From Ehretia macrophylla (taxonomy: Eukaryota > Streptophyta > Magnoliopsida > Boraginales > Ehretiaceae): 64,000 bases of DNA. Below are positions 5,705 through 58,235 of this stretch, in pieces (position 1 is the first letter of the stretch; each line of letters opens with the position of its first letter). The stretch lies in NCBI GenBank assembly GCA_037974665.1, contig CM075778.1, forward strand, positions 9,909,001 to 9,973,000. Reading direction: 5' to 3'. The notes below the pieces were generated by a model, which had not been told where the DNA came from, searched no databases, and was given only the letters and a program-made list of their open reading frames with translations. Both the position numbers and the translations under genes were made by a program.

Positions 5705-6075
5705 ATGTTGCCGGCAGGGCTAGTGTCGAATCTGCAACAAGTGTTGCAGAGCAGAAAGCAAGGCGGTGAGGAAAATGGGGACCACAAATTGACCAATGAT
5801 AACGATGAATCAGCATCTTCTTCTGCTGAGCTGTCGGCTTCAAATGCAGCCGAAGCCGAAGCTGAAGCGGAAGCCGAGCCGGATAGCTCGAAGCCGGTGG
5901 TGTTGGTGACGAATGGAGATGGGATTGAGTCACCTGGGCTTACTTATTTGGTTGAAGCTCTTGTTCGTCAAGGCCTTTACAATGTCCACGTCTGCGCTCC
6001 CCAATCGTATGCACTCTTTTCTCTGTCGATATGCGTGTGTGTGTGTATGTGTGTTTAAAAGTATGTATTTTAAAA

Positions 6076-28649: not shown

Positions 28650-30242
28650 ATATGCAACAAATGCTTCAACGAAATCCTCTTAGGCAATTTATCAAACATT
28701 TTGGGTGCAACACATATAATAGTGTGAATTGGAAAATATATCAAATACAAGATATGCAATATATTTGAAAGTAAAGAGGGTAGAGTTAGAGAGATCAAAC
28801 GCAAAGATTTTTATGTGGTTCGCTAATCTATATTCACCACCTAAGGCCTTCCCCTTAAAATTTCTACAAACTCAACTATGATGCTTCTTCAAATGTTGGT
28901 GAAGCACAAACCAACTTTACAACCCTCTCTTGAGTCCACAAAAGTTGCAAGCTCATTTAAATATAGGTGAAGCTCAAACCTACTACAACCTTTATTCTTT
29001 GAGTCCACAAAATATTTTTTCACACTTTTCTCTTTACAAAGATTTTCTCAATCCAAATCTAGATCCCCAAAAGTGTATATAATACGAAGATTCAATATGA
29101 AAAGATTGAAACAATAATAACTCCTCAATGAGTAGATAATACAATTTAAAGTACTTGAATGATCAATAGATATGCAAGTGTAAGCTCAAGCTTGGTCTAA
29201 TTTGATAGATTACATCAACATTATAAGCTAAAAATCAATAGACATGGTGTGAAAAAGGTCTAGGATAAAATGGGTAAGGTTTGAAACTTATAGAAAATGC
29301 TGCAGCGATTGTAAAACAACTACTTTTTCAAAATACGCTCCAATCCGGTCGCGAACCTAGTCACATATCCGGTCTTGTTCTCAACGTGTCCGGATCAGGC
29401 AATTAACCTATTGGAATTCCCGGTCGCGTACCCGGTTGTGTTATTAAGACCAGATCATATTGCAGCTTTTTTGGATGACCTGGTCTTGATACCCTGTCTT
29501 GTTCACACCCTCGGATGTTAGCTCCGAATCCTTAAATTTTTTACAATTTTATTCAAAATATTTGCTGCTAAGTCTTTTGAAGATATAAAGTTTAAACCTC
29601 TCCAAAACACTTTTTTAAAAGAGTTTTTCAACCCATTTAACATCTCACAACATTTTCTAAACGCTTGATGAAAGATTTAAAATCAATTTGAAAGATCACC
29701 AAGAGCTTAAGCCGCACAATTACAATTCTAAGGCAAACGACATTTTCAAGCCGTTACCCCTTATGTTGCCATGTCTCTATCCTTATGACGCCACGTCATC
29801 TTCATCTCTTGAAGTCCTAATCTTCAATAACATTCTTCATTTCTTCAACTATTCGAGATTTCATTTCTTCATCTCTTCTTTGAGCTAGTGGTATGCATTA
29901 TTATCTAATTCTTCTCAATGGCCAACGTAATTTTGCATCTTCTCAATCTTGCAACACTGTTATGATCAATTACATTATTTTCTTTTGAGCAAGATTTTCT
30001 TCCTCATATAACACCAAACATTCACAACATATTTTGGCTCACAATGTCATTAGTACAATATAATCCACACAAGCCAAAATATTTGAATACAATTTGGCTT
30101 ATAATGATATTTTTTTTTAATGCACAAAAGTCAACAAGTGTGTATTTAAGCATTTAAACATATTAACATAAACACACTTGATAAATCTAATTTTTCTTGA
30201 TTTGTTATCATAAAAATCATATCTTTAGGCATAATGTCAACA
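28650..30242 (-). mobile_element. LTR-like repeat, copy A, Ty1/copia type likely (fossil)
   Basis: About 1.6 kb is shared with copy B near 54.7-56.7 kb. Shared lines include GATCAAACGCAAAGATTTTT, GATGCTTCTTCAAATGTTGG and TCACACTTTTCTCTTTACAA. Read on -, it begins TGTTGACATTATGCC (complement ending at 30242), a copia-like LTR start. The far end near 28650 is approximate. No partner LTR or internal region is seen beside it, so it is a solo LTR or LTR-derived remnant. It is old, to judge by the distance between copies A and B. Confidence 0.55.
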
Positions 30243-34033: not shown

Positions 34034-36206
34034 ATGGTTCGATATACCATCATTTTGTCATTCATAGCACGTGTGGAAGTTGATTGGGAGTCTCTTAACA
34101 CCCAAGAGAGTACAGTACGTTCCACCAGATTATTTTTGCCACTCTCTGATATCTGTGTGCAACACGAGGATCAAAACATGGACATTGTAGGTGCCACGCT
34201 CACTACTAGCCACGAGCGCCAGCCTACACTGCCAGAGTCATTAGGATGTGCAGAAGACACAAAAAACTAGCGGGCGATGGGTTTCCTGTCACTAAAGGAT
34301 CACACGACATGACTGGAAGATAGGCGTACACATATTCAGTTACGTTAGAACGAGTAAAAATTAAATTCAATATAAATATAGAATAGTTAGTTTAATTCTT
34401 CATTATTCCACAAGTTATAATAAGTTGTTGTTATAATGGTTAATAGATTTGTACCTGTCGCGAGCATCCGAGAGTTCAAGACCATTTTTGTAGGCGGGTA
34501 CACGGGCCCGTGGATCACCTATGGACAAGTTCCACCAGATGTGAAGGAGCAATGGTTTCGCTCATTTGAGGTATATATAAAAATTAAACCAATAAATATT
34601 TAATTTATACATGCATGTTGTATATTAACTCATGTACCTGTATTTGTTGTATGTGGTTCCAGAGAGATTACATGTGGTACATTTGTAAAACTGCGCCAAT
34701 AAGGCTCCATTTCCATCAAAAGGTGACTAAGAGGTCAAAAGACCAATTAGCAAAGGCGCGTAAATTTAACAAGCCTCCTTTTTGGGACCTAGGAACAAAT
34801 GCTAGTTAAATAGTATGATCCAAAGTGAATTGACAAATCTAAAACAAACAAGGACAATAAGAGCAAAAATATTTCAAAACACTACACAGGTGCCACCCCT
34901 TTCATGGGCAAGAGGATGATGGTATGTAAACCTATTAACTAATTAAATTCAATAATGTAAATTAGTTTATTTTATATCTAATATATGCAATACTAATTAT
35001 GAAGTTATAAAATAATGCAGGAGGAGAGAGAAGGCCGCAAGGTGTCCTATGCTGAGGTTTTCAAGGAAACCCATACTAAAAGGGAGTGTGATGGTATCCA
35101 ATACTCTAATTCAAAAGGTGCTAAGATGATGGTAAGTATTTATACAAGATATTAAATTACACATATATTTAATGTAATAAGAATATTAAAAATTTCAAAC
35201 TTTTATCTTTACAGGATTGATATGAGAAGATGCCCTAGTAGCGTGAGGCTACAAGCCAAGCTAATCCCAAGGTGCCGTACGTTAACCCCGATAAGGTCTT
35301 CTACGAGGCAGCTAGTAGGTCCAACAAGGGTGGTACCTCTTTGAACTAGGCTCGTAGAAGATCCGCATTTGAGGGGCAAGACACCATATCCCTACTATTA
35401 CTACCCCCACAATCACGCAGTAAGACGTTGAGGTTGCTGTCAGTCAGGCGACGGCGATCGTGAAACGGGAGCTTGCAGATACAAACCTTCAAATTCAACA
35501 GTACATCATGGAGCTCCTGACGCAAATGCAGGTAGAGATCAACAAGCTGAAAGCAGATCGCCCACCACGTGAGCAAGATGATGAGGAAGACAATCGATAG
35601 ATCATTTTAGGTTTTTTGTAAAGTTAAAATATTATTTTTCTACATAATTTAGGTTTTTATAAATATTTTATTTAATTTTAATTTTTCTTTTAAATATTTA
35701 TTTTATTTAATAATTAAAAAAGCGACAAAATAACTATGGAATTTGGGCGACGAATTAGCCATGGATATTTGGCAATGAAATTGCTACAAAAGGTGGTGAC
35801 GAGTTAGCCATGGATATTTGGCAACAGAATAATGATGAAATTTTGGCAACGAATTGATGACAGAATAGTGACGACTGTTAATAAAATAATTTAACATAAA
35901 AAACTTATAGGGTAACGGAATGATGACGAAAATTAATAATTTAAAAAAAAAATTAATTTGGCTACAGATAATAATAAAATAATTATAAATTATAAATTAA
36001 TTTGACCACCAATTGGCGATGAACACCAAAAAAATAAATATTTATTAATTTTCAAAATTGGCCACGAAATGGCAAGGAACATTGGGTTAGGCTACAGGGC
36101 CCAAAATGACATAAAAATTTATGTAGCCATTCCATAGTTTGTCCCAACGGGTTGACCAAATGGCTACGGAATTGGTTTGTAGCCTGAGCTCTTTTTTCTT
36201 GTAGTG
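34034..36206 (+). mobile_element. CACTA (En/Spm) DNA transposon remnant, right part
   Basis: The right end is exact: the complement of 36187-36206 reads CACTACAAGAAAAAAGAGCT, a CACTA terminal inverted repeat. Before it, 35720-36180 carries subterminal repeats such as ACGAATTAGCCATGGATATT, found twice (35751 and, with one change, 35798). Coding scraps of the plant En/Spm-associated 'transposase_24' protein lie at about 34470-34570, 34662-34800, 35020-35130 and 35217-35345, for example YVNPDKVFYEAASRSNKGGT at about 35278. Intron-like gaps separate them; at least one in-frame stop (about 35236) marks decay. I found no left terminal repeat, so the left end is lost or unrecognised. Its right end abuts the RNase H part of the copia fossil. 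Confidence 0.75.
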
Positions 36207-38015
36207 TACTGCATGATAGATTTCTACCATATATATCCTCGACTAGCCTCGTGAATTATGAGAATTTCGGCATGATTTGAAGAAGTAGCAATCATTCTTT
36301 GATACATGGATCGTCATGATATAATACTATCATCACAAGTAAAGACATACCCTATTTGTGACCTCATTTTATGGGGTCAGATATATACCAGTATTGATAT
36401 AACCAATTAATCATGATCTTATTCTTTTTGAATAAAATAGACCTATATATGTTATTCCACGTAGATAGTGTAATGTCTGGGTCTATTTTAATCAATAAGG
36501 TACATTAGTACACCAATTGTACTTAGAAATGATATTTCACGATCGAGCAATTTTTTGCCATCTTCCTGAGGAAGAAAATGATCTTTGCCACATTAAGTAA
36601 CATGACAACCATAGGGGTTCTTAAAGATGAACTTTATAATAAATTTCTTTAAATTTTCTCCAATTATAAGTCCATCGATTGAGTAAATTGCTTGTAGGAA
36701 ATGCTCAATATGGGGACCAAGACAATATTTTATTTTTCTCTAGTTTTTCATTACAAATTCCTTTATCAAATAAGCGATAATTTTTTTAAGCTCTTCAGGA
36801 GTTCCAACAAGATTAAAAATCATCCACAAATACCGCAATAGTTGTAAATCTCATTTTTGAAATTCTTTATAGAAATACAAGTATAACTAGGTCATTGACA
36901 TATACCTCTTTTTGTCAAGTATTTACTCAAACAATTGTACAACATGTGTCCAAAATAGTTCAATTTATATAGGAACTGCTACAATTAATTAAATATATTT
37001 GATGAGTTTTCAATTTATTTGCTTCTAACAAATGATATCATTTAGGGATTTTTGCATATATCACTATCAAGTGATCCATATAAATTCGTTATAATATCCA
37101 TTAGACGTATATCTTAATTTTTTGAAGTGGGACTAGTCAAACATTGAAATGTAATTGCACCTATTATAGGCAAATACGTTACCTAATTCACAATCAATGA
37201 CAGATTGGTGTGCAAGACCTTGGACACAAATCACGCTTTATATCTTATAATCTTATTTATCGTTTTTCTTATTCTTACTAATACCTACTTGTATCCAATA
37301 GATTTTACATTTGTAGATGTTTGGATGACTAGTTCAAATGCTTCTTGCATTACAAATAAGCGTAACTCTACTCGTATAGCTTCTTCCCATTTTAGCTAAT
37401 TATTTCTATATCTATATTCTTCCACATTTTGTGTTTCATGATCTTCATCTCTTATTTGAAACTCTACTATAAAATCAAGTACATAATTTGTTATAGCTTT
37501 CTTCTGATCACATATCTTCTTGATAGATACATAATTTATGAAAATTTCTTAATTTTTAGGTACCTCGGTCTCTTAAGGGACTATCTGTTTAACAATACCT
37601 TCATAGATTATGCATTTACAAACATTTTTTTGTTCAACCACTTTTGTCACGCTCCTTAATAATATGGATCTTCATGATTCACGATTTCTTTAATTTTTTC
37701 TTGTGTTCTCCTTTTACGAGGTACGATGTCTTTTGAATCGATAGGTCTACCACACTCCAAATTAACATACTTGAGATGCATTTACTGATGTATCCAAGTC
37801 TTGTTAGAAGATTTAATCGTGCTAGAACTTTCACAATAAGTATATGATTGTGTACTATTCTTTTGCATCAGTAAATGCATCTAGTAAATTATTTACAATA
37901 CTTTGCGAATGAATAATGGTTTAAACTTTGAGTTCACATTATTTAGGTCTTATATAGATTCAAATGATACATTGATAATGTCTTTCAAGATATTTAACAT
38001 TGTATTAATATCTTC

Positions 38016-40582
38016 TGTGAGACCCCGTACCAAGGCCATGTGTATTTTATAGCATTTTATATATTTTGCATCATTTAATATGCATTTACATCAATTAATG
38101 TGCATTTACATTGTTTTACGTGCACATGCCTCGTTTAACATGCATTCATGGTCACTTATGTGTATTTATGTGTTTTCAATATCGTAGGCATTAATTAAGT
38201 TCTATCATATTGCATTAGCTAACTAAAAGCAATTAAAACACAACTATATGGCAAACTAGAAGATTTCATTTAGTTAAGAGGGCAATTTGGGCATTTGGGA
38301 TTATAAGATATTCTCTACTTAACAAAACGCACACATTACACCATATACACACACTACACACACTCACACACACGATCTGAAGAGAAATAGAGAAGAAGAA
38401 GAAGAAGAAGAAAAAGAAGAGGGAGAAAGAAGGGATTCTAAGCCATTTCCTTGCATTTTCTAACAAGTTTCATCATTACTCTTGCTTTTTTTGCCTTTCA
38501 AATTCAAAGACAAGGTGAGGGATGTTTTCAACATGCTTTGTAAAGGTTACATGGTTCATGATTATGTGTTATATATGTATATTGAGCATGATAATGATAG
38601 ATATAAGATTGCTTGGTGAATTTGAGCTTGATATGTTCAAACTAGGGTTCCAATTGTTATGTTAATGTCATCTTTAACTTGGACTTGTCTTGTATAGCTC
38701 TTGTTGATAGTGAAGTGTATTATGTGATTTGTGTGAAGTATTTCATGTTTAAAGCATGTTCAATTTAGTTGCAAAGAGAAGAAATGAGAGTTGAACTTTG
38801 AGTGCTTGAGCGAAGTAGATGGTTGTGGAAAGGAGGATTTGTACTTGTGTTGTGAGCTTTGAAAAGCTAGAAAACTTGTTGATTAATGGTGTTTATGACT
38901 TGGTTGAGTTGTGTACTCGATTTGAGTTTGAAAGCATGAGTTTCGATCAAGAAACAAGTCAAAAACATGTGTTTTGTGCATGATTTGGTCGAGGCACACG
39001 CTAGTGCCTCGCCCGGATGGTCTAGCCCGGATGAAGGGTAGTAGTTCTGCCCTTGGTCCGGTCGAGGGGTCCAGATGAGAGCCTCGTCCGGATGCCTCGA
39101 TTGGATGGTTGATAGTTTTCCGCAATATTTTTTTCAGATGCCATATCTCAGTCAATTCAACTCCGAATTGAGTTCTGTTTGATTCTAGAACTATCTAATT
39201 TCGATAAGCTTTATTTCTATACTAAAATCAGATTAATAGGAGTTTGGGAAGGTAGAAAAATTAATTGATTAAGTTAGGCTAATGTGGAAGCGTTGAAGTC
39301 ACTACATGGTTAGACACTTGCATGATAAAGCAACTCTTCTTGTTGTCCTCTACATTGTGTCATATGAATTCTAAATGCAAGATATTATAATTTTTTACAT
39401 GTTTATGTGTTGGAATATGTTCAAGGTTATGTACATGCTTATGTGACGGAGGCAACCTACTATGTTGCCTTCCAATTGTAATCTTTCTATTGCTTAAAAA
39501 TCATTTACGGGTGCAATAAGGTTGCAAGCACTCTATGGGCATAGTAGCGTTTCGTTTCTACTGGGCGACATCAGGCTTGCGAGGAGGACTCGACTACCAT
39601 GGACCCCAATCCTACTCTTGCTTGGATTTTGATCCTTGGAGAGGTGGGTCATAAGAATTGGGTTTATCCGGATTACCCTATGGTTGGAGTAAAGGGGTAT
39701 AGATTGTTCATTGATTCAAGGCCAGCCGTCTCCAACAACTGCAAAAACAACTGTATCCTTTTAATACTATGTGTTATCGCTCCCACATGAGCCTTAACCC
39801 TTGGAGAGTTGAGTTATATGTTCTATATCATGTATCACCCATAATGTGTATAGTTCCCTTGATGGTTTACTATTATATTGATATCCGCTTCTTGATTAAT
39901 GCATGTTACCATATGATACCATTCTTGCTTGGCCCCCGGCCCCTGGAGAGTTGGGTTATAGGTTGTTGTTATCTTGTTAATTGAACATGTATGCATGGCA
40001 TGACTTTTCAAATGATTTCGAAAGGATAAAACACTTGCGAAAATCCCCTTCTCATTATCCCTCGTTGAGCTAGGTGTAGCTCACCCCTCTTTTGACAATC
40101 TCAGGTGAAGATTAGCCCAAGCAAGCTTACTTGTGGATATAAAGCTTCATTGATGTGTTGAATCGAAAATTCTACTCTTGTGCTCTACATGCTGACTTGA
40201 AGGATATGTTTCTTATTGTAACAAGCATATTTTGCATAACTGATAACTTGTTATTTTGTAATTTTATTTGTATTTGATGATTTATTGATGTAATAACTTA
40301 CTCTTTTGGATCATTACGATGTAACTAAGTAGACTATTATTCCTTCGAGACCTAGAGACCCGGACGTTGGTTAGTTGTTATGTATGAACAAGTGATATGA
40401 GGTCTTGTGAATATTTTACAGATTGCTGTAATCCTTTAAGGCCGATGACTTGGCAGTCTCTTGAAGCTTTTATGGAATGAAAAATGAATGCGCAGGTTGC
40501 TAAGTTGTTAATCTCAGGTTTTAAGCATCGCGAATGTCATGTTCCGGCCTTAGCCTAGAGATGGGTTGGGTTCGGGTGTTCA
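38016..40582 (+). mobile_element. Ty3/gypsy-type solo LTR, about 2.6 kb (fossil), inside the copia fossil
   Basis: It begins TGTGAGACCCCGTACC and ends GGTTCGGGTGTTCA, the TG...CA pattern. Sequence on both sides belongs to the copia fossil (reverse transcriptase lead-in on the left, integrase on the right), so the whole block is an insertion. It contains an AAG-rich stretch (about 38396-38420), a related pair of lines near 39635 and 39790 (CTTGGAGAG) and no coding region. The related LTR at 40845 starts with the same TGTGAGACCC in the opposite orientation. A target duplication is no longer clear. Confidence 0.65.
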
Positions 40583-40827
40583 AGATATATGAGAAGGAAA
40601 ATCAAATCTAGCATAAATATCAAGTTGTTGTCGTAGAACCATTTCGCTATGTTGTCTTGGTATTAGTATAGCACAACCAAATACACATAAATGAGAAATA
40701 TTGAGCAAATGATCATGCACAGTTGTAATGGAGAACTATTTATGAAAAGTCGTAGCCCAACAAAAATTAATGTAATAGCATGTAAGATTGCATGTCCTAA
40801 CGAACATGTAAAATTTTGTTTTCATAA

Positions 40828-42913
40828 GGGTTTATTACCCTATTTGTCATGCCCCGACTCAACCCCGCCTAGGACCAAGTCAAGATGCAACGGCAATAGG
40901 CATTATATCATTTGAAACATGGCACTTTTGACAACTGAACCTGTTCAACATTTCATATAACAACAATAAAACCAAACATTACATAACTTTCACCTTTCAA
41001 CATACAACCAAATGAACCTAGCCATCCGTCACACCTACTTTAAACATGATCATACAGTTGCATAAGTTCAAAATAGACCATCAAGGTTAGCAACTTACAA
41101 CAAAGAACCATCAAACTACTAAACTTTAAGGTAAACATCATAGCCTTAACATATTGACATGAATCCTAAAAGTCTTCAACATTAAAGTAGACAACATAAT
41201 TTACATATTTCCAACAAAATCTTCATTACATAAACAACTACATAACTCCAAGGACACATAGACAACACCAACAATCAATCAAGCAAATCAAGCCTCAAGC
41301 TCATCCACATTTTCTTGAGGCACTTACTGCACGTATTTTACCTCGGGTTCACCTGAAATGTTAGCAAACAGGGTGAGCTTACATAAGCTCAGTGAAGGGG
41401 GATAAAGGAAGGTTTTAAAAAATATTTAACTTTGAAAACCCTTTCGAAAACATGCTTTAAAACATTTGATAAACAATAAGCACAAATAGTTCAACTAATA
41501 TAAAGTAAGTAAACATTTAATAAGGATACGCTCACTTTGTTAATGCCGTCCCTTTACACCATCACGAACTCTTCCCCTTTATACCAAGAACATAGTAGTC
41601 GTGTCATCACCTGACAAGCTCGATGCTGCCCAGTGTAACATGAACGCTACCATGTCTATTTTTCCCTTTACACCGAGAACATAGTAGTCATGTCATCGCC
41701 TGGCAAGCCCGATATCGCCTAGTACAACACGAACACTATCATGTTTGTTTTAAAGGTTACAACCTTTCGCTCTGCTTCACATCCGCGTTCACATTTAATC
41801 ATATAACACATATTCACGCATTTCGAGAAGACAACAAAGTAGGTTATCTCTCAACACTTCAAAATTTCAATATTCAACACTTAATATTTCAACACTTAGC
41901 ATTTCAAAACTTTAATATCATTTAGAAATTCATTGATTATGTAACAAAGTAGGTCACCTAATCTTAAGCATACACTTATAACCCTAAGTCGTTTCTAACT
42001 ATAATCGACACTACACACATGCATAACCACACGTCCAACAAAATAGAATTCAACAACACTTTAACTCAACTTTTAATAGCATTTGCATCAACTTTTAGCA
42101 ACAAAACCTACAAACTATGAAGCAACACACCTATATATACATACACCTATCAATCCAATAGCTAAGCATGCATTTTACCAGGCGAAACGGACAAATAAAA
42201 GGCTGCAAATGGACTGTCCAGCCATGGTAGTCCACTGTCCAAAGCTGAAAAATTTCAGCCAACCCACCTATAAGTAGAAGGGTCAAAGGAAGGTCAAAGC
42301 AAGAATAAGTCTTCAAATGGCCAAAAGACTAAGTTAGCCTTTCATTTTGCTTCTAATTTCAAGTTTGACGCTCTAGCAAATATTCAAAGTGATAAAATAC
42401 AAGTTTAGGCATGTGTTTGACTAGTATTTACAAGTTTGCCCTTATGTGGTCAAAGAAGATGAAAAATCAACAAAAAGCTAGGCAAATGGACTCTAAAATG
42501 CACATTTCGCTATATAACTCCAGTAAATCATTTAAATCCACAAATTATAAACTAAAATAAATAAACACATAAATTGCACATAAAAGTCTGTGCTTGGGTC
42601 TCACACTATTGGTCCATTTCCTTTATTTGTTTTGTTAAATTGGTTCCTTATCTTTGTAAGTGACACTTTGTAGTTCTAAATGTTTTAAAATAAAGCCATT
42701 GTTAGTCGTTTCGTGAAATTGTATCCAAAGATAAATAGTTTTATCAAAGTGGAAAAGGCAGTTATATGCAACACATTTGTTTTTTGCATCTGGTTTCTAA
42801 CATAAGTTAATGAAAGGATTAACGGTCGCACGACCAAAAGGAACCACTTATAAAGATAAAAGATCAACTTGACAAATTTGATAAAAATAAGGGACCAGTA
42901 GAGTAATAAACCC
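40828..42913. mobile_element. Mutator-type MITE (about 320 bp net) split by a solo LTR
   Basis: The ends are inverted copies: left GGGTTTATTAC (40828-40838), right GTAATAAACCC (42903-42913), with imperfect pairing continuing for some 90 bases. A perfect 9-bp duplication TTTTCATAA flanks it (40819-40827 and 42914-42922), as Mutator-like elements make. It sits in the integrase part of the copia fossil. The solo LTR at 40845-42605 later landed 17 bases inside its left end. No coding content. Confidence 0.8.
40845..42605 (-). mobile_element. Ty3/gypsy-type solo LTR, 1761 bp, with perfect 5-bp target duplication (fossil)
   Basis: CTATT stands at 40840-40844 and again at 42606-42610. On -, the LTR begins TGTGAGACCCAAGCACAG and ends GAGTCGGGGCATGACA. 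It has no internal region or second LTR, so it is a solo LTR left by LTR-LTR recombination. Lines such as GGGTGAGCTTACATAAGC and the near-repeats at about 41575 and 41665 (ACATAGTAGTC) are typical of long chromoviral (Del/Tekay-like) LTRs; the clade is inferred. Confidence 0.85.
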
Positions 42914-45572
42914 TTTTCATAAATAAAGGTTTTGTAATCGATTGCAGTCGTTTATGAATTTGGGTAATAGGATTTTCAACTTAATTCCAACTAACATGTA
43001 ATAAGAATCGAATGTTTTTGATGGAATATATTGTTATTCTCAAGGCGAATTGTTCTAATAAGATTATAAAAAAAATGTGCCATTAATTTATCAATCAATG
43101 CAAGTAATCTAGCGAATGCAAGATTTCTAGAAAAAACTAAACAAACTTGTAGCCAGCTTGTTGATGCATCTATTAGCCCCATAAAATGATAAACTGGTAC
43201 GTAAGATGGATAATAGGTACACAAATATCCACTTAAATTTGTAGAAAAGAATTTGGAGATTCAACAAGACTGAAGGTGGAGATAGTCTCACAATCAACTT
43301 TAATTGAAAGCAAGTAATTTATGAATAATCATTTGGTGAAGAATCTTGTGATTTTTTAAACGATGATCAACTAGATCATGTCAGAGTATGAAAGTACTAG
43401 ATCATTATATCTTTACTTTTGCATAACATGTGATTCAACTACTCGTATAGTTATATATGTTATGGCGAATATCTATAAAATTTAGCAATTTTTTTTTTTT
43501 GGATTTGCTAGTGTTGGATAATTCAGGGTAATAACGCATAAAAACGAGAAATTAAGAGGACACAGAATTTACATGATTCGCCCTAAAGCCTACATCTACA
43601 GGCAGCAAAAGAATAATTCACTATATGATGAAAACGTTACAAATTCTTTCTTACAAAGCCCCTCACATTTTCTTGTTTCGCTACACCCATTACAATAGTC
43701 ATAGGACTTATTTATAGGTAATCTCTAGGGTTCTAGGTAGTGGACTTATAAGACAATTATGCATTAACTACAAATACGGGTCATAGCCCAACAAATCTCC
43801 ACCTTGGACCGTATTTACTCCATCATCATATAAGAACGTCATCCATTCTCCTTCCCTTGCCAAGCAGTCCCAACTGGGTCAGCCCCCTCACGAGGGCTCA
43901 CTGTTCTGCACTACACATACCACTCTAAGTCTAGCCACACCGACTGAACTTGCTTCTCGGTATCACCTTGGTCACCCCGAATACCAGACTAACACCTGCA
44001 ATGCCCTGTAGACATCTGAGAAACTCATTCACAACACTCCAATGTTCCAGTAGCGCTATGTCCCCACTACCAACATTGTCTACCTGTTAAATATCACAAT
44101 GAGTGCAGCCCATAGCACCTCCAATGCTACCAACACTTGAACACGGAACACGTGACAAATGTTCCACCTCGTCCTCAGATAAACCTTTGCGAAGAATGTT
44201 TACTTCACCTGTGATACTAACCTACTGAGATGCACCTGGACAGCCAACCTCACCCTGGGAGCCCAACTCATGCACACTCATCTCTGCAGCAGACAAAGCA
44301 TAAGCCATCAAATCCGCATCCCCATCTCTGTGAGATTTTTCAATCTGTTCTCCTAACTTCTCAGAACTGCACTGCGCACCCAGAGATACAAATTTCTCAA
44401 GTACCTCAGCCAGCTAAACTGAACTTCCTTGTTTGTCACAACCTAGAACTCCTAAAATTGTATCACCTAGCTCTACCTGCTCCTTGACACCGTAGTTTGA
44501 GCAAGTAGTTATTGCCCCAACACATTTAACCATACTCCCCTGAAGAACATATAGTCCTCTTCTCAAAATCCCTTTCAAGAGCACCTCGGAACCTCTCGTC
44601 ACCTTCAAAACTCCATTCTCGCCATAAAATTTGCAACCACGAGAATTCAAACACCCAAGAGAAATCAGGTTCTTTTTCAACTTTGGGACATGCCAACACT
44701 TGAAAGATCTAATGATGTCATCGAACATCATCACTTTTACAATACCTATTTCGACCACCTTCAAAGTGAAACCATTACCTAAATAGACCCTCTCATTCTT
44801 CTTAGAGAAAGAAGAAAACCAGTCCCTCCTAGGACGCATGTGGAACGACGCACCTGTGTCAAGAATCCATTGATTTTGCCAGTGTCCAGTACTAAGAGAT
44901 AAAACCTCCGCATCACTAGAACTTTCACGCTCAGCAGCATTCACAACATTAGCTGAACTCCTACCTTTATCTTTTTTGGACAATCCTTTCTCAAGTGACC
45001 CAGTTCCCCACACTCATAACAGTGTCTTTTCTCTCTGAATTTTGATTTTGACTTCCCCGAAGATCTCTCTCTCTTATGTCTTTTCCCTTTACTCACTAAA
45101 CCCTCTTGATCCATATTCATCGCCGATAACTCCATCTTTATAACTCTCACAAGTTATTTAGATCTTCTTTTGCAACTTAGCTACTACTATGCTAGCCTAG
45201 GAGCTCTTTCCCGTGCACCCTAAATCAACCATACACCTCCCAATGCACCTCAAATCAACCAAGCACCTTAGCTACTACTATGCCAACTTTAGTAGCTCTT
45301 CTCTATGCACTCAAGAACAATCATAAGGCTTTGTGATCTTACTCTCGTATAAGCCCGCTTAGAATCACCTAAATCAACCAAGCCTTGCTCTATCGCATTA
45401 CTGTAACCTCATACAATTTTGAGAGTATAACCCAAGAATTATGCTTATCGTGACCCTACTCCATCATCTGAGCCCCGCTGCCTAGCTCCCCTGAGAGTCC
45501 ATCACAATAGTCCACTATAATTCTTTGAGATTCCAAGCCAAGATCGTCAAACCATCGGCTCTGATACCAATT

Positions 45573-45770
45573 TGTTATGGCGAGCGCAGAGAATCAGAGA
45601 ACAAATTAGCCTTAAAACACATATGTAGAACTCATCTATTGACCCAAAAGCTTAAGTTATTGAGCCTTAAGCCTACACATGTTTATTAATAGCTCATTAT
45701 TCTCCTAATCTTTCCATGTAGGAGAAATTATTCTCTTTACTTTTAAGTTCACCATGTGAAACTCCTAACA
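45573..45770 (-). mobile_element. Short copia-type LTR with primer site on one side and purine tract on the other (fossil)
   Basis: It runs TGTTATGGCGAGC...CTCCTAACA, 198 bp. On -, it is followed by AATTGGTATCAGAGCC, a tRNA-Met primer site (complement of 45557-45572), and preceded by the purine tract AAAAAGGGGAAAATT. It therefore looks like both the 5' LTR of one copy and the 3' LTR of the next, as in tandem copies sharing an LTR. A related block is at 46329-46544. Confidence 0.6.
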
Positions 45771-46328
45771 AATTTTCCCCTTTTTACATGTGAACTCCAA
45801 TTGGGCCTTAACTCCCCCTTGATCCATATTCAATGTCGATGGATCCATCTTTACCATTCTCACAAGCTTTTAGGTCTCTTTGCACCTTATAGCTACCGTG
45901 GTGGCTCTAGTAGCTCTTCTCTGTTTACCTAGATCAACCATGAGGCACCGCGAACCAACTCTCGTACGAGCCTGCTTGGATCACCTAGATCAACCATGCC
46001 TTGCTCCATCGCATTACCACAACCTCATACAACTTTAAGAGTACAACCCAAGAATTATGCTTATCGTGACCTTACTCCATCTTCCTTGATCTAATTATAA
46101 AATTTTGACCCAATTAACACATAAGCAAACCCAAACCAAATCAGCCACGAACCCGTCAACTGCAAACCCAAATGAAAGAGAAGAAAAAAAAAGACAACCT
46201 GCGCATAACCACGACCCAACCCACACAAAAGTCAAGATTCGGACATCGGATCTCAAAGGCGCTGGTACCACCACGTTCATCGTCTTCTGGCAACCTAGAA
46301 GAGCTTCTTCCTGCGTCGATCCAAACAC

Positions 46329-46544
46329 TGTAACACCACCCTAGAAGCTTTTGGCGAGCCCAAAGAATCAAAGAACAAATGGGGCATAACACACATGTAT
46401 AGAACTCAACTATTGACCCAAAAGTTTAAACTATTGGGTCTTGAGCCTACACATGTTAATTAATAACTCGTTATTCTCCTACTCTTTTCATGTGGGAGAA
46501 ATCATTATCTTTGCTCTTTAATTCACTATGTAAAACTTCTAACA
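46329..46544 (-). mobile_element. Related short copia-type LTR block (fossil)
   Basis: About 216 bp; it matches the 45573 LTR along most of its length (TGACCCAAAAG, GCCTACACATGTT, TTATTCTCCTA, CATGTGGGAGAAAT) and has the same purine-rich sequence and CATGTGAACTCCAATTGGGC next to it. The left boundary is uncertain because it carries about 18 extra bases and no primer site beside it. Confidence 0.5.
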
Positions 46545-46666
46545 ACTCTTCCCATTTTCACATGTGAACTCCAATTGGGCCTTAACTCTCCATTGATCCA
46601 TATTCAAGGCTGATGGATCCAATCTACCACTCTCATAAGATTTTTAGATCTCCTATACATCCCAGT

Positions 46667-49600
46667 TGTCACACCCCAACTCGACCCCACTTACAATCAG
46701 TCAGGATGCAAAGGAATTTCAGCTATATAACGTCTGTAACATGAACAACGGGACTCTATCCAATCATTTTAAAACATAACACTACCAATTCCAAGTTCAG
46801 CAACAACTCCAACATCCATTCAACAAATACAAAGTCATTCATTTAACACCTACACGACATTCCAACATAAGTCATAAGCCTCCGTTTCAACAACATACCA
46901 CAAGTTATATTATACATTTGCAAATTAGATTATAAACTAGTTTAGCAACCTAATCATATTCAAAAGGAAGACTACTAAACTAGTATTATATAAACCATTA
47001 TCTTTGAGTAAGTTATACAATACGACATACTATAAAAGCTAAGGAAAAAACACGGAGCACTCCAACACAACTCATGGATAAGACTCCAGCACATAAGACT
47101 CCTCCACAGAAGGCACAAACTCAGCTTCCTGAGGAACGTACCCAAAGTCTGGCTCAGTTACACCTGATGACAATAAACGAATGAGGGTGAGCTTATATAT
47201 TACAAAACTCAGTGAGGATTCGAAAGATGTTTTGAAAACTTTTACTTTACCACTTGCTAATCATCCTATGAACAATAACACACATTAAACATCATTAACA
47301 TCAATATTTCATTTCAAGCCACATAAATAACCATTCAATTGAGAAAGGATACACTAGTTGGTGTAGCTTCATACTTCATCACGATCTCAACCAACTTCTT
47401 ATTGTTAGAGATGTGCCATAATGCTACACATTTGGATGACATATATTGGGGCATTTTGACATTAACTTGTACATTATGGCATCTATGTCTATATGTATGT
47501 TTTCATATTGACATAATTAGCACATTCATATTCTTATTCTTTATGTGTATGAATGAGTCCCTAGTATTTTCATTAGAGGAATGTATTCTAAAAGCATTTA
47601 GAATATGTTGACGTATTTCCTTAATCTGATAAATACTTAAAGTATTCATAGTCCTTAGATTATTTGATCGGGACTTCAATAATCTATTACGGACTATCAC
47701 ATATGTTGCTATCTTTGATTAATATATGGATGTTAATGATAAAGGATGGTGAGCCACGTGCCATAACAAATAGGGATGCGACTAACAAACATGTGAGTAA
47801 CTATTAGTTGAATAGATCACTGAATGTGACTTGAATAACAAATTACATGACTTCAGATTAATAATTTGTTATTCGTTGTGATTGTACATGTAATCCTTAG
47901 ACTTGAGACATTACAGCTGTCATCTATATTGGGGTTTGATTATAACGTTTGGACAATGATTGTTTCGACAAACGAGATGAGATGCGTCATCTCGCAGTTT
48001 CATTCATTTGGTATAGTGATTGACAGGTAGTGGTCAAGATAGGATCCATTAACCTCCGGCGTGAGGCAATGTCCTATGCGATCTAAGATTGATTGTTTAA
48101 TGAGGAAATCCTTGGCCAAGGTATGAACGATGGAGAAAGGGTTTTTCATGTGTCATCTCTCATTACACCAATTAGATATATGCATAGTATCGAGTTTATG
48201 AACTTAATCGAATCATGGTTCTTGCTCAACGGAACAATTAATGGATTGGATTGTATGGTAATCGGCGACTATAAATAGGTTTATTACATGATTACTTCAT
48301 TGCCTTATAAATTGTCTTGATATGTTGCTAGACGTCACTCAAGACCTTGAGGGTGTTTCAAGAATTAAAGGAGAAATTCTTGAAGCAAATCAAGAACCTG
48401 ATTGACATTAAAGGTGTTTAATGTTTCCTTAGTGCTATTTGGCTATGAACCTAGAAAGTCACACCATATTAGCAAGGAGATTAAGTCTTGCTTGGACTTG
48501 AATCATCTTCTCTAATAAATTATTAAGGAGTTAATAATTACAGTCTCAACCATTAAAAGTTAATAGGGCAAATTTGTAAGATTGGCAAAGTTTTGGATAC
48601 TTAGTGCAAATAGGTAAAATATGATTTCTTCCTATTGGTTGCCAACATGTTGATGTGGCAAAGTATTAGCCAATAAACACAAAGCACCAAGATTAAAATC
48701 TTAGTCATCCATCTTGTAATCCAAGGATTGAAATTGGTCAACAATTGTAGGCTTTATTTAAGAGTTAAATAATAGCAACTTATCTTGTGAAGACAACTTG
48801 CAAGACAAATGCACTTGTACGTGCAGTCTTTCTCGGGTATGCCATGCAAAAGAAGACAAAGTTATATTTTCAAAGTCTTGTATTTTGCATGAATCAAGGA
48901 AAAGAAAAAAACAAGAAAAAGCCTTGTCTCTTGGTCTTATGTCTTCTCGGTCAAAGTAAAGAAAATGAAGACAAAGACTCTTGTTTTTTCTCATGCATAT
49001 ACACGACCAAAGAGATTTAGAGAAGGCTTAATGAAGTCTTCTTCTATTCTGAAAATTCAGCGACACATACATACACCATAGATGGTTATAAGAACACAAG
49101 TGTTTGTTCTTCATTTTGCTTTGTCATGTTGGATTAAATTGAGACTAAGAAATATATCTAAACTAAGTGTAGTTTTAAGTAATCTTTTAAAAGAGAGAAG
49201 TTTTCTTGTCCATGAATCTTCCAAGGAGTTTCCTAGTACTACAACTCAAGGAGGAGGAAAGTTCTTCAAATTTCTAGGTGGACAATCTAGGACTTCTACA
49301 CTTGTAAAAGGTTCAAGGAGTTCTCAAAGCTTCACCAAATGATTCCAACCTTTGGTCTTCAAGAGGTATTCTTCTCTTCTTGTATTACCTTTGGTTTGAG
49401 ATGTATATTGCATAAATATCAAGTATTGGGAGTGACTACACATAAGAATATCATATATGCTTTGAAAAATTGTATTTCATGCTATCTTCCGCTGCAAAAT
49501 TTTTATTCTATATGTGCAATCCCGGATATCGTTCTTTCACTTATAACTCTCATAATACATAACCGAGGTACCTCATCTAGCCCCTCCCTCCATGGCATCT

Positions 49601-50857
49601 CCGCCCATGCGAGCTGGGGGTAGCCTATGATAGTCATACCGTTATCAACCCGACAGCCCGATGCTGCTTGGGAGGTAGCACACACTATCAAGACTCATGA
49701 CAATAATAATAAACATCTCATGTTCTGAAAAGACAACAAAGTAAATTGTCCTCCAAATCATCATCAATCATCAATCAGTTAACAACATTTCAATCAACAT
49801 AACATCAATTAAACAACTAAAACAACTAAGTTAGATGACAAAGTAGGTCACCCAAGTTAACATAACATTTAAACATACTTCCAAACCCGAACCTACTCAA
49901 CAACAAACCAAGAAACAACTACACAAAACTACCAATCAACTAAAGACAATATTTAAACATTTTAAAGAAAGACTACATAAACTTCCAAAGTTCATAACTT
50001 TCAATCTCCTAATCAAACAACCCCCGAACCTTTTCCTATCACCCAACCATATATGCAAATACATTAACCCCCTCAGAAACCAACCAAAAGCCATCCAAAA
50101 CAAGTCCAACAACCCTATTTTTGACAATGCACCTAGGCTGAATTTTCGGACTTTTGCTACGACATCCAAATTGAAAATTCGGCATTACAACATTACTACG
50201 CAATAATTAACAAACTCATAGAACCAACAATCATTCAATTCCAACCACTACAACAACAATTATTCAACTATAAGCCAATAAATCAATTTTAATGCCCAAA
50301 AATTAGAAATACATGCTACTACCGTTCAAAACAGCTATAAATACATATAAATGGTCCTTGACAATTACGGAGCAATAATCTAAAGACAATTTAACAAAAC
50401 ATCGGATAAAAATGCAACTATAAAAATTTGACAATAAATAGCATTTCTAGATCTATAATTTTTCTCTCACCTTTGATCCGAAGTAAAGCTAGGAATGCGT
50501 GCAATGGATGCCCAACAAGCGGATTCCAACCCAGAATGAAAAACTTTGGACAAAAATTGAGTTTTCTAATGAAAAATTGCTTTGAAAACCAAGTGAAAAT
50601 CTCCTTTTTTTTTCTATGGAGTTTCAGCCATATGTGTGTGTATTTTTTATGTTTTGAGCTTTGTCTAAATGTATTGTGTATGTATAATATGTATATGATA
50701 TATTTATATGCATAGTCAACAAAATAAACTGAGTCAAAGTTGTCAAACCTTTGTTATTTTAGTTAGTTTTGCCAAAAATAGTAATTATAATACTATATAA
50801 CTAATACTATCCTTTTTAGAACTATATTTTAGTTGACAACATATATATATAAGTATA

Positions 50858-50900
<43 letters not shown>

Positions 50901-51240
50901 GATATATTACTTATTTTTGCAAGATAGTGAAAAATCATTTTAAATTCCTAATTCGTTTCAGAATCAGTTTTAATCAGACACGGGTCTATTAATATCTGAA
51001 GACTAGGTTTTCAAATGCTTAAAAGACCAGTTTCAAAATTATAGCGGACGTGTTTCAAAAATACTATTCATAAAACTCGACGATAGAATTTTCAATGCTG
51101 ATTTTTATGAAAATTTCATGGATGCTCACATAGCACGTAATAGGAGTAGAAATCACAAAATTAGCGCATTCTAAGTCAAATAACACATATACAAGTCAAA
51201 ACATGCAATTTCACACAAAGACAAAATTTGAGGTTTCACA
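46667..51240 (-). mobile_element. Ty3/gypsy-type solo LTR (about 2.4 kb net), itself split by a copia-type LTR (fossil)
   Basis: The plus strand runs TGTCACACCCCAAC...GAGGTTTCACA. The lines 'GGGTGAGCTTATATAT...AACTCAGTGAGG' correspond to those in the solo LTR at 40845, so the two are related LTRs in the same orientation. It interrupts a leader-type segment of the second copia element: the phrase that should lead on to GCTACCGTGGTGGCTC resumes right after 51240. Target duplication is weak (CCAGT and CTAGC). Confidence 0.7.
47403..49539 (+). mobile_element. Copia-type solo LTR, 2137 bp, with perfect 5-bp target duplication (fossil)
   Basis: CTTAT stands at 47398-47402 and 49540-49544. The insert begins TGTTAGAGATGTGCC and ends CGTTCTTTCA; CTTCCGCTGCAAAATT near its right end is a common line at the end of plant copia LTRs. 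The sequence on either side is the gypsy-type LTR, so this is the youngest event of that stack. No internal region is present. Confidence 0.75.
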
Positions 51241-52602
51241 CTAGCTACCGTGGTGGCTCCAGTAACTCTTCCCCGTGCACCCAGATCAACCATGAGGCAC
51301 CACGATCTTACTCTCATACGAACCCACTTAGGATCAACCAAATCACCATGCCTTGCTCAATCGCGTTACCATAACCTCATACAACTTTGAGAGTACAGCC
51401 CAAGAATTTTGCCTACCGTGACCCTACTCCATCCTCCGAGCCTTGCTGCTAAGCTCTACAAACAATCCGTTATGACAGTGTACCATAATTCTTCGAGAGT
51501 TTGGGCCAAGATCATCAAACCATTAGTTTTGATACCACTTGTTAGGATAATTCAGGGTAATAACGCATAGAAATGAGAAATTAAGACGGATACAGGATTT
51601 ACGTAGTTCGGCCTAAAACTTACATTCACGGGTAACAAGAGAATAATTCACTATATGATGAAAACATTACAAGCACTCTCTTACAAAGCCTCTCACCTCT
51701 CTTGTTTTGCTACACCTATTTCAATAGTCATAAGACTTATTTATAGGTAATCTCTAGGGTTCTAGGTAGTGGACTTATAAGACAATTATGCATTAACTAC
51801 AAATACGGGCTATAGCCCAACAACTAGAATATAATGTATCAACAATATCAAATTTTGTGCCACAATGTAACATAATATTAGCCTTTTAGAGTTTTCAATT
51901 AGATTGGTAGAGCCAAAAATCGTAAATACATAAGCTTGAGCCTATGTTAAATTAACAAAAATATAATTTATCACAAAGTATAATATGTTTGGTTGCATTA
52001 TTTGCCAAGTAGTTATATTCACCATTCATCTTGAAATTTAACAATAGAATAATGAAATTTACATATTCCATGAGATAATAATTTAAATAAACATAACTCA
52101 TAAACAAATATGAGAAGAAAAATTTTGGAATTAACATAGGAAATAAAATAGAATTTCTCGTACAAGGAAGATGAAAATGAAAGAACATATAAATGTTTTA
52201 ATAGGCTTGAACAAGTCCATCTCCAATTAAATAATTTATTTTTCCACTAGAAATAAGAAAAATATCTCTAACATCTAAGTATACAACATCCAAAGTCCAT
52301 CATAATCAATATGATTTACCTTAGTTGCTTTAGCTTTTCCCTACATTGATATTTAATAAAGATCAACCAAATGCTTTAGTATACAATAGGTGTTACATAC
52401 TACCACTGTCTTGAGAAGACTTATGTAAAGTTATTTTTTCTTTCTTATACTTTTCTTCATTATTCCACTTTTATTTGTAGATTTTGCTTTCTTAACAACA
52501 TTTTGGCCACGACCACGATCTCATTCACGATCGCGCCATGCTGATTACTGCATTCACAATTAGATGTTACATACTTCAGGGACTGTAATTCTATTAACTT
52601 TA

Positions 52603-53359
52603 GGTAGCGATTGGTATGGTGCAATGGGTTAAGAATGGAATGGTATTTTCCTCTTTATTTTTATTCTTGTGCTTAGTATGGGATAATAAACCTTGGAATT
52701 CTATTACCTTGATAATCCGATTCCCTTCAACTTGGAATTATCCATTCCACACAAAACACATGGGATATGATTAATCCATTTCCATATTCTTGGGAATGAA
52801 TCATTTGTCAAATGACCAAATGCTCTTTCAATACATAATATATAACTAAACTTGCCTTTTATATAAAATTATTATATTAAGAATAAAAATAAGCATAATA
52901 TTGCTATTAATAAGTATTAATAATAAATACTAGTAATCATATTAATTAATAAATATTATACAAATATTACAAAAATCATTTGTCAAATGACTACAAAACT
53001 ATCCCTTTATATACATGTTATAGTCCTAGGAATAAAAATAAACATCACGATGATAATAATAATAATAATAAAGTACGTAATAATGGTAATAATTACTTAA
53101 AATAGTTAATAGATAATAATAATATATAAATAAATAATAGATATATTGTGTATACGATAACCAAAATGTAATCTTGTTATTTTATAAAGTCATTCCCAAA
53201 ACTACTTTGCTATGTTGATTACCAAACATGTACTTGGAATTAACACATTCATTTCTTATATTCATTTTTACAACATACCAAGCATGGCATATATAGTCAT
53301 TACCAAGCTCATTCCATTTCATTCCTATCCAAATTCGTTCCAAAATATCAATTACCACC
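52603..53359. mobile_element. Non-autonomous DNA transposon, 757 bp, with TTA target duplication (PIF/Harbinger-like)
   Basis: TTA flanks both sides (52600-52602 and 53360-53362). The left end GGTAGCGATTGGTATG pairs imperfectly with the complement of the right end, GGTGGTAATTGATATT; GAATGGAATG-type phrases follow in both arms. Gag-like coding of the old copia fossil stands on both sides, confirming an insertion. The body is an AT-rich, non-coding stretch with (AAT)n. A hAT origin is not excluded. Confidence 0.6.
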
Positions 53360-53490
53360 TTAGGGAATTATGTGAATGGCGCTGCCAATTGAGCATAGTT
53401 GATGGTTTTTATCAAAAGCTCATTATTTGGTTCAATAACAAGAAAACATTATATCAATTCAAAATACTTTGTAAAGTACACCTTTAGTGT

Positions 53491-54660
53491 TATTACTGCA
53501 AGAGTTATATTCGAGGATGAAATGGAGAATATGTATAATCTAACGTGTAATGTTTAGTTATCTTTTCTTTGTATAATGTCAAGTGATGACAAATTTTGAA
53601 CAAAACACTGAGACAACCTTATGTGCATCCAATTATAATGAGTTTTTGAAAGAATTATAGTCTTTTGGTGATAATATTTGAAATCACTGCTTATATACCC
53701 AAAAGATGATTTTTAAACGTAAGATACTTGGTTTTCAATCCTTCGTGGATATGATAACTATGAAAAATGATCACAAATGTGCTATCTTGCAAGGATCCTT
53801 TATTTTCTTCTTTAATCTTTTTCCCAAGATTCTTTGTATCAAGATGGATTTTAACATCAGAAGACCAAAATAAAACCGTTTTTGTTTCCCAAACTGTCAA
53901 TGAAACTAGAATCAAGATTGTTGACATTTTCCATTTCAAGAACACAATCAAAATGTAATTAAAAAAATTATTTGTACGTTATGAAATACCTGACCTATTG
54001 TAACAAAGTGATTGGACTACCACTTCACAAATGCGGTAGAGTTTTGTGCAATTAACGTGTCATAAAATTAAAGGCAAAAGTAGCAGTAAGACTGAAAAAT
54101 GAATATAAGGATAATAACAACATAAAATGGAGAGTATATTTCTTCTTCTTTTTTTTTTTTATAGAGTCAAAGCCAGAAGCAATTGCATAATCATTTGTTT
54201 CTATTAATTTAGCGAGATATCAATTTATTGATAGATTAATAATTTTAATTTATAAATATATTTTTAGTTTTTTTATTTAAGAGAGGCCTAAACCATTTAC
54301 ATCACTTAGTATGTTATACATGAGACTAGATCTTGAGACCTCTTGTATCTAAATCGAGAATCATACCATTTAGATAATTTTAATTTTTTGACTTAATATT
54401 AAACATATTGCAATTTTTGCAATTGAAATACACGATCCATGGAGAACATGACCTTCAAGACTTTTGATGAACCCTTAGATAGAGATGCCATTAATAAATA
54501 TTAAACAATGAGTTGGGGTACCAAAAAAATAAATGTCTACTACCTCTTAAATTTTTTCGATGAAAATGACACTAGTACAAGATTTTGAGCGTAGATGGGA
54601 TCATTAATACCATGATAGGGCATTCTCAAAATGAAATTGAAGTTGAAGTTGATGATAATA
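53491..54660. other. AT-rich spacer without recognised features
   Basis: It may include more of the copia fossil's 5' side, but I cannot recognise it. Open frames here are short and unlike known proteins. Confidence 0.45.
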
Positions 54661-54664
54661 CATA

Positions 54665-56666
54665 ACTATTAATCCAAATAAGCCTAAGATGGGGGTGAAT
54701 TAGGCTTATGGAAGCAAAGCACTACTTTAAAAACTATGAAATTTAACTACAATATTCACCTAGGCTATTTATCAAACACTAATATGCAAGACAAGTTTTG
54801 GTGTAACTTAGGCAATAAATGCTTGAAAAACTTTCTTAATGATAATATATCAAACACCTTGTGTGCACTACACGTAATACTTATGAGTTCAACAATGAAT
54901 TTAATACAGGATATGCAATAAGCTTGAAAGTAAAGAGAGTAAAGATAGAAAAATCAAACGCAATGATTTTTAGGTGGTTCGATAATCTACATCCACCACC
55001 TAAAGTCTTCTCCCCTTATGATTTCTACAAACTCTACTATGATGCTTCTTCAAATGTTGGTGAAGAACAAACCAACTTTACAACTCTCTCTTGAGTCCCA
55101 AGAGATGCAAGCTCCTTCAAATGTAGGTGAAGCTCAAACCTACTACAACCTCTATCATTTGAGTCCACAAAAGATTTTTTCACACTTTTCTCTTTACAAA
55201 GATTCTCTCAATTCTAATCTAGAGCCCCAAGAGTGTATATGATACAAATAATTGAGTGTTTGAATAATAATAATACAATTAAGAACAACTCAAACTCCTC
55301 TATGAGTAGATAATACAATTTAAAGCACTTGAATGCTCAATAGATTTGCAAATGTTTAGGATGAAATGGGTGAGATTTTGTATAAATAGGCAATGTTTCA
55401 ACAGATGAAAGCGACTAGTTTTTCACATTTTTGTCAAAGTCGGTCGAGGTGCCGATCAAGGAGCCAGTCAACATCTCGCTCGACATGGCTCGTCCTACAT
55501 TTTCAGAATGTGTCTATTTGTGAAATTTGCATCCAAAATTCAATCTTTTGAACGTAAAACACTTAGAAACCTAAAGAATATTTCTTCAAAAGTGTTTTCA
55601 ACCTTTTTAACACCTTAAAATATTCTCTATACTCTTGATGAAAAAATTAAAACCGATTTTTGCAATTTCAAGAGTTTAAAACAAATTTTCACCTGAAATT
55701 CAATCTTTTGAAGATAAAAATATTTGAGCCTTTTAGGAACAATTCTTCAAAATATATTTTGACCAATTAATCTCAAATCTTTTTCAAAAGTTCTCGATGA
55801 AAGATTAAAAATCATTTTGAGAAACTATCAAGAGCTTAAGACATACAAGTGGATACCAAAGACAAACGACAAGTTCAAGTCACTACCCTTTATGCCGCCT
55901 CTTCTCCGCCTTATGTTAACACATCATCTTCAAGTCTTCAAGTCTTCAAGTCTTAATCTTCAAGATCTTCACTTCTTTAATTCTTCAAGACTTCATATGC
56001 TTGTGGTGTGTTAAAAAATTGCATTCTTCAATTCTTCTCAATGGCCACATAATTGCATCTTCTTAATCTTGCAATACTTCTTTGATTAATGATATTATTT
56101 TCTTTCAAGCAAGACTTTCTTATTCACCAAGCATTCATGATATATTTGTCATTTAATAACATAGATATAGTGTAATCCACAAATGCCAAAATACCATATT
56201 GACTCAAAGTAATGTAAATATTTTATCCATATGAGTCATAAATTTGAGTTAGCCATATAACCATATTAATTCAATCACACTTTCGACTTTCAATGCATTT
56301 TGGCTTACAATGAAAGTATGTTCAATATAATCCACACAAGTCAAAATATTCAAGTATAATTTCACTTGTAATGATATATACATTTAATGTACAAAAGCCA
56401 ACAAGTGTGTGTTTAAGTATATGAACATATTAACAAAAGCACACTTGATAAATTCAATCTTACTTGTTTTCTTCATGGGATCAACACCATTATTTTCTTC
56501 ATGCAAGAAATACCACCAATCAATATTTGACTTGAATAAATATATAAAATTTATCCACAAGAGTCACAAGTGTGAATTTAATAATATAAACACATTTAAT
56601 CAATCAAATTTGACACAACTAAATAACCATATTTATTATCATCAAAATCATGCATTTAGACATAAA
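54665..56666 (-). mobile_element. LTR-like repeat, copy B, Ty1/copia type likely (fossil), cut by a TRIM
   Basis: It is the same repeat as copy A at 28.65-30.24 kb, sharing for example GATGCTTCTTCAAATGTTGG, TTCACACTTTTCTCTTTACA and AACATATTAACA. It extends further on the left (CCTAAGATGGGGGTGAATTA at about 54682, typical of one end of such elements). Its right part stops at the TRIM and appears to resume for some 20 bases after 58235. The left end is approximate. Confidence 0.55.
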
Positions 56667-58235
56667 TGAGACGAGGCACGCGCAGCAACACCAAGTTTGG
56701 CTCCCAACCCCAGGAGGTTAAGGGCTAAAATATGCCTTTCCACAGAGTCGGCAAATATAAGTATTGAAACACAAGGTTCAGAGAGCTGATAGTATCTGCA
56801 ACCATGAGATATATCTGTAAGATCACCGTACAGTGCGACCAATTGGGCTTGGCTCCCAACATAGTACCCAGGGAGGGGGACCCCTCAAATCTGAGCCCGT
56901 GACAATTCTCCCCCACCCAATCCGCAAACGCCCTCGTTGCGGACTTAACCCGTAATGCAGCCATAGTTTTTTAGTGGAATAGACTAAGGTTAACATGACA
57001 AAATATTGCTAGAGACTAGCAAGGGTATTTTTGGTCATTTTTAGTGGAAGGGTAATTATGTCTTTGGTCCCCCTTCTAGCCATTTACCTTATAAGTATCA
57101 TTACTAAACTTAGGTGTTGTTAATTATGAGAGAGTGTTAAAGTCTAAAGGCTACTAAGAATTTAAGATAAACTTTCCATTCTTGGGAAGAGATTTTAATC
57201 TTAAAAGTAGACTAGCTTTGGACTTGGACTTGATATTTAATTAATTAATTGGATAGAACGAGATTGGCTAAACCACAAGAGCCCACACACGTGGGAATGG
57301 CCTTGTAGGCATCGGCCATAAGGCTTAGGCGTGTGGCTTGGACTAGTTTCTAGGATGAGGATTTTCCAATATTATTTTGGAATAAAAGAATAATTCAAAG
57401 TCCTAATCCTTTTCTATCATGGATTTTGTTTAAGACATAACTACCTAGCATGTTTTTCACCTAGATAAAGGCCTCTACCCCAAGCTCTACAATTGCACTA
57501 TCTTCTTTGAGATCTCTCTCTCTTTCACGTGTAAGCCTCTCTAAAAGGAAACACAAAACACTCTTATTTTGGTTTAGTTTTGCAAGATCAAATCCCACAA
57601 TTTGATCAACACTTAAGCTAGAATTTGGCATAAATGGGAAGATTAAAGTTGAGGAGCGAAAGTTAGCTCTAGGCGTGTGGAGCTTCTTCAGCAGAGGTGA
57701 ATTTTTCTTCGTTTCGTTTTTCGCAATAAAAGATATTTCGCAAAACTTTACTTGCTTTTAGAATTAAACTATGAACTGTTTATATGTTCAAGTAACTATT
57801 TCATACTTTATTCATTTTAAAGATCCATGCATAAATGTTTTCGCCTTATTCTTGAATAAAATAGAATTTGATTCATGCAATATAACATTTCCCTTCACCC
57901 AGGGAACATCACCCAGCACTACATCAGCATTCCCTCGTTGGATCCCCCATAGTACCACAACGTCGTCTGTTCAAGATAACTGACTGCCTCTGATACCAAA
58001 TGAGACGAGGCGCGCATAACAACGTCAAGTCCAGCTCCCAACCCTAGTAGGTTAAGGGTTGAGATACGACTTTCCATAGAGTCGGGAAGTATAAGCATTA
58101 AAACATAAGGTCCAGAGAGCTAATAGTACCTACAACTATGGGATATATCCGTAAGATCACCGTACAGTGCGACCCGTGGGGCTTAGCTCTCAGCACAGTA
58201 CCCAGGGGGGACCCCTCAAATATGAGCCTGTGACA
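56667..58235 (-). mobile_element. TRIM (terminal-repeat retrotransposon in miniature), both LTRs present
   Basis: LTRs are at 58001-58235 (5', 235 bp) and 56667-56904 (3', 238 bp). On -, they begin TGTCAC and end CGTCTCA. The primer site TTTGGTATCAGAGG (complement of 57987-58000) directly follows the 5' LTR, and the purine tract GGGTGGGGGAGAAT (complement of 56905-56918) directly precedes the 3' LTR. The 1.1-kb inner region encodes nothing recognisable, as expected of a TRIM, which depends on proteins from other elements. TAAA stands on both outer sides. Structurally it looks whole; the LTRs differ at roughly one base in six by eye, so it is old. Confidence 0.87.

Follow-up and report, generated by a model that had tools for sequence, protein, structure and literature searches.

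Clusters of nested LTR retrotransposons are known from plants, and nesting has been used in them as relative age (PMC6911290, PMC7251063, and REANNOTATE, PMC2672092, as far as their available text goes). In the available part of PMC7251063, 1042 of 4126 nested pairs (25%) had LTR divergences that ran against the order of nesting. Solo LTRs without target duplications, which accounted for 552 of 7,247 elements (7.6%) in pear, were attributed to inter-element recombination in the accessible text of PMC4668562, and complex LTR retrotransposons formed by template switching are described in that of PMC1950507. Judging by these excerpts, nested LTR retrotransposons, duplication-less solo LTRs and complex multi-LTR elements are already in print.

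The locus analysed here occupies positions 36207-53986 of a window of 64,000 nucleotides (the whole stretch of DNA that was analysed; G000:C15:9909001-9973000) in a genome of 1.58 Gb and 20 contigs, presumably that of a plant, to judge by its repeat types. We are highly confident that it is a genuine nested transposon stack, formed by separate insertions into a decayed copia host, H. Compared with the accessible parts of PMC6911290, PMC7251063 and PMC2672092, it likewise has elements inside elements and shows no difference in kind; it differs in that DNA transposons are also involved and in that empty sites are shown by relatives. The whole window gave no match in Rfam, the PDB searched by sequence gave none, and no relatives were found in the viral_contigs and genome_contigs sets.

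The copia host

36207..53986, minus strand: H, decayed copia element, colinear with 29 relatives that have the copia domain order
36207-38015, 40583-40827, 42923-43511, 51828-52602 and 53363-53986, minus strand: pieces of H, split by the inserts
36194..36206, minus strand: CACTA terminus adjoining H; partner terminus not found in the window

The first piece of H (36207-38015) had about 70% DNA identity to relatives in its own genome (best 40 of 638 candidates scored). At least 71 matches were listed, window included, and 30 were taken as loci. Host continuity was followed in both orientations in 29 relatives (L010-L038), the window itself being left out. All 29 contained the RT piece; the two integrase pieces were each found in 28 and the gag-side piece in 27. 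An earlier note had claimed that the same copia host continues past each insert, and the colinearity of the pieces with these 29 relatives bears this out: the flanks do not come from different copia families, nor is the block one continuous element, as relatives of H run through the sites of the MITE, the PIF-like element and the second copia element.

Domains were read in open stretches of three relatives. L021 contained Pol_BBD, gag_pre-integrs, rve at 30.2 bits (below the cut-off of 32.6) and SH3; L027 contained SH3 and then the start of RVT_2; L037 contained RVT_2 (2.5e-59). Integrase thus precedes RT in pol, the Ty1/copia arrangement, and H is classified as copia from the domain order of its colinear relatives. 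Five copia motifs, written down after the sequence was seen, lie in the expected order on the minus strand of H; four are unique in the six frames of the window and the fifth occurs twice. Pfam searches with the H pieces alone (X at stops) gave nothing above cut-off, eight own-genome RVT_2 loci (L001-L008) had no match to the H pieces better than E 0.36, and a short copia peptide was not found in literature text. Open frames across the joined flanks (40, 39, 39 and 35 codons) were dropped as evidence for H after a control, because 21% of 5000 random joins reach 39 codons.

On the right, alignment to relatives stops at 53986. The stack had been placed at 36207..53490 in the earlier note; its left limit stands, and the right one moves outwards by about 500 bp. 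On the left, H adjoins the CACTA terminus at 36206, the pattern of which has 6 matches at ≤2 mismatches in the window (4.1 expected). The stretch 35003-36206 resembles a CACTA-type 3' end with subterminal repeats, and a Transposase_24 match at 35003-35152 is weak and below cut-off. No LTR pair of H was found, and the tails of five relatives, followed leftward of 36206, did not match convincingly. Direct repeat pieces at 28651-30206 and 54809-56473 (70-82% identity) flank the stack and, as far as seen, are not LTRs of H.

Elsewhere, the window contains a decayed LINE-like element at 991-3871 (RVT_1 1.4e-14, zf-RVT 1e-10, RVT_3 1.3e-09), two long palindromes at 4138-5112 (about 400 bp each, 71-75% to their own reverse complement), a 273-bp tandem unit at 13231-13765 (98% identity), and gene pieces at 5645-6055 (SurE, 7.3e-07) and 21735-22739 (Myb DNA-binding, 5.5e-08). 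A TRIM-like direct repeat of about 241 bp (56664-56904 and 57998-58235; 83% identical, 1.3 kb apart) is accompanied by a primer-site match with 1 mismatch at 57987-57998.

Inserts, empty sites and order

40828..42913, strand not assigned: M, Mutator-type MITE, 9-bp duplication, 320 bp without its insert
40845..42605, minus strand: G2, putative gypsy-type solo LTR in a terminal repeat of M, CTATT duplication (5/5)
43512..51822, minus strand: Y, copia-type element with zinc knuckle and protease-side domain, GCTAG/ACTAG duplication (4/5)
46667..51240, minus strand: G3, putative gypsy-type solo LTR in the leader of Y, CCAGT/CTAGC duplication (3/5)
47403..49539, strand not assigned: C2, putative copia-type LTR inside G3, CTTAT duplication (5/5)
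52603..53359, strand not assigned: P, PIF-like MITE, TTA duplication (3/3)
38016..40582, plus strand: G1, putative gypsy-type solo LTR with TG..CA ends, no target duplication, about 95 bp of host missing

Seven inserts were delimited within H by their boundaries and target duplications. Four are direct, namely G1, M (holding G2), Y (holding G3 and C2) and P, and the stack has four layers: H, Y, G3 and C2. G1, G2 and G3 are presumably gypsy-type, a label taken from LTR features and termini.

Sites lacking M, Y and P are present in relatives of H. At the site of M, the projected gap was 29-30 bp in 26 of 28 relatives (2 and 32 in the other two); an alignment of four relatives puts this gap upstream of the site, where host sequence has been deleted, and the target is present once. 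At the site of Y, the projected gap was 0 bp in 18 of 27 relatives and -3 in one; in the other 8 it came to 113 bp, the only match recovered there lying past an internal host deletion. The site of P was contiguous in one (L041) of five relatives fetched; L040 and L042 had both flanks in order, and L039 and L043 only part.

These empty sites bear on the idea that the block is one compound element, amplified as a unit without separate insertions. The blocks do adjoin one another, and composite elements exist. The idea is nevertheless contradicted by the relatives of H, in which the aligned sites contain neither Y nor M, and by L041, which lacks P; scored copies of G2 (40 of 2391 candidates) and scored Y blocks (40 of 1628 candidates) also occur without their neighbours in the stack. 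We therefore regard it as extremely improbable and retain separate insertions into H.

The earlier note had reported exact target duplications for several inserts. They are exact in M, G2, C2 and P, almost exact in Y (4/5), weak in G3 (3/5) and absent from G1 (1/5). As background, TG..CA pairs 1.5-5 kb apart were taken from the same region: an exact 5-bp flank match occurred in 395 of 244,557 pairs (0.16%). A 9-bp flank match was found in 684 pairs, two of which, one being M, also had a terminal inverted match of ≥9/12.

The duplication of M, TTTTCATAA, matches at 9/9. Its terminal inverted repeat matches at 18/32 with G2 in place and at 26/32 once G2 is skipped; as a control, 17 of 63,985 window 15-mers match the added part equally well. 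With a 9-bp duplication, terminal inverted repeats and no coding, M has the features of Mutator-like MITEs, and its duplication and terminal repeats place it as a Mutator-type MITE. P likewise combines a TTA duplication with terminal inverted repeats (16/25; local score matched by 4 of 2000 random pairs), as do PIF/Harbinger-like MITEs.

In an own-genome search with G2 and its flanks (G2 being query 168-1928; best 40 of 2391 candidates scored), the 88 non-self matches listed all lie within query bases 155-1933. By a hand tally of the matches listed, which has 89 entries against those 88, 13 start at query 165-171 and 6 at 155-164. The dispersed copies of G2 end where the copy in the window ends, on both sides. 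The alignment of G2 to G3 starts at base 1 and is taken up again on the far side of C2, with scores of 54.0 and 56.8 against simulation maxima of 31.1 and 36.8 (60 simulations each). The site of G3 is spanned by two uninterrupted copies of the Y leader. C2 is putatively copia-type by its LTR features.

Taken together, H very probably inserted as a copia element, decayed and then acted as a landing site, which G1, M, Y and P entered in separate events. Later, very probably, G2 entered the terminal repeat of M, G3 the leader of Y, and C2 G3. The gypsy-type blocks and C2 are each probably a solo LTR that LTR-LTR recombination left behind. Nesting fixes the order of 11 of the 28 pairs among the eight elements (H, G1, M, G2, Y, G3, C2 and P). 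The clock-free ordering of ages put forward in the earlier note holds for those pairs and fails for the four direct inserts among themselves, whose mutual order is not given by nesting.

Host loss at G1

G1 is related to G2 and lies in the opposite orientation. It had been described before as an inserted gypsy-type LTR. Its position inside H is upheld, and a clean insertion is not: 94-95 bp missing from the window are present at this site in 27 of 28 relatives (-156 in the remaining one), and the flanks TCTTC/AGATA match at 1/5. Most likely, G1 arose by recombination between two elements of the same family that lay about 95 bp apart in H, an event that would remove the host sequence between them without any target duplication being left. 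Alternatively, a normal insertion may have been followed by a deletion that took one duplication together with about 95 bp of host. A single solo LTR and a 95-bp host loss fit such a history as well; G1 seems complete at either end (TG..CA), however, and a random deletion need not halt at the end of an LTR. We give this later deletion a little less than an even chance. G1 resembles the pear class in the accessible text of PMC4668562 in that both its ends are present and a duplication is lacking; unlike at those solo LTRs, as far as that text describes them, the host loss at its site can be measured (94-95 bp).

The mosaic element Y

43512..43794, minus strand: 3' LTR of Y
51540..51822, minus strand: 5' LTR of Y
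45106..46666, minus strand: leader of Y, a mosaic made up of leader copies and a pair of LTR-like X blocks
45575-45878 and 46349-46652: X blocks, LTR-like, of another kind than the LTRs of Y

Y had been read before as a second copia element. Its domains are copia-type gag and protease-side domains (zf-CCHC 4.2e-07, Pol_BBD 3.7e-22), in keeping with that reading; it is not a simple copia copy, being a mosaic. Without integrase and RT it falls short of a complete copia element, and it is a non-autonomous element only. The mosaic leader and the X blocks had been missed in the earlier reading.

The Y block was searched against its own genome (best 40 of 1628 candidates scored, window included). 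The 39 other copies scored match from window position 45105 leftwards, 38 of them starting at query 1555-1559, and 30 reach to ≤12 bases from the outer end of the LTR, an unbroken gag-protease-LTR arrangement like that of Y itself; hence, no integrase or RT lies between protease and LTR in those 30. None of eleven relatives (L053-L063) continues into the X-type leader. In three of these (L054, L055 and L060), another LTR lies some 1.36 kb upstream, and L062 and L063 match the window stretch 46086-46337 at 62%. In a further relative of Y, at G000:C4:22266913-22269291, leader and LTR pieces are opposite in orientation to the gag-protease body.

An exact primer-site match lies in the leader at 45558-45569. 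A second one, beside the LTR of Y at 51526-51537 (2 mismatches), is weak, because 8 such matches were found and 3.5 expected. Divergence was 0.185 between the X blocks, 0.23-0.28 between the leader copies and 0.123 between the outer LTRs of Y; by these values, the mosaic may predate the insertion of Y. An LTR tree of 13 rows had no resolution and did not pair the outer LTRs as sisters. The closest neighbour of the 5' LTR is L059 (89.0%), and that of the 3' LTR is the 5' LTR (88.3%).

Tentatively, and with more doubt than conviction, we suggest that Y could be a cross-family chimera produced during reverse transcription, with a leader from another copia-type family, X, and that it integrated as one unit. 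One junction would then adjoin the primer binding site, and the second would fall at about 45105, in near-identical sequence shared by the leader and gag copies. The inner X blocks might instead stem from recombination of neighbouring elements after insertion, with no chimera moved as a unit, which we consider about as probable. The LTR tree, in which the outer LTRs are not sisters, speaks for this course; the 4/5 duplication and the clean empty site speak against it, as does the available text of PMC1950507, where elements of that origin have no flanking duplications and different outer LTRs. To return to the chimera, Y is like the complex LTR retrotransposons in the same text in its inner LTR-like blocks, its outer LTRs of one family and its near-exact duplication, and differs in that its inner blocks are unlike the outer LTRs and in that it is without integrase and RT.

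Significance

The stack is ordinary in kind and unusually well proved, and it alters no general view of plant genomes. The claim of a nested stack at least four layers deep, made in the earlier note, is confirmed by the empty sites, the target duplications and the nesting of H, Y, G3 and C2. The locus serves as a worked example in which relatives of a decayed host prove insertions and measure the host loss at a duplication-less solo LTR. If the tentative reading of Y is true, its chimera would represent strand transfer between two families and add a cross-family case to the template-switched elements.
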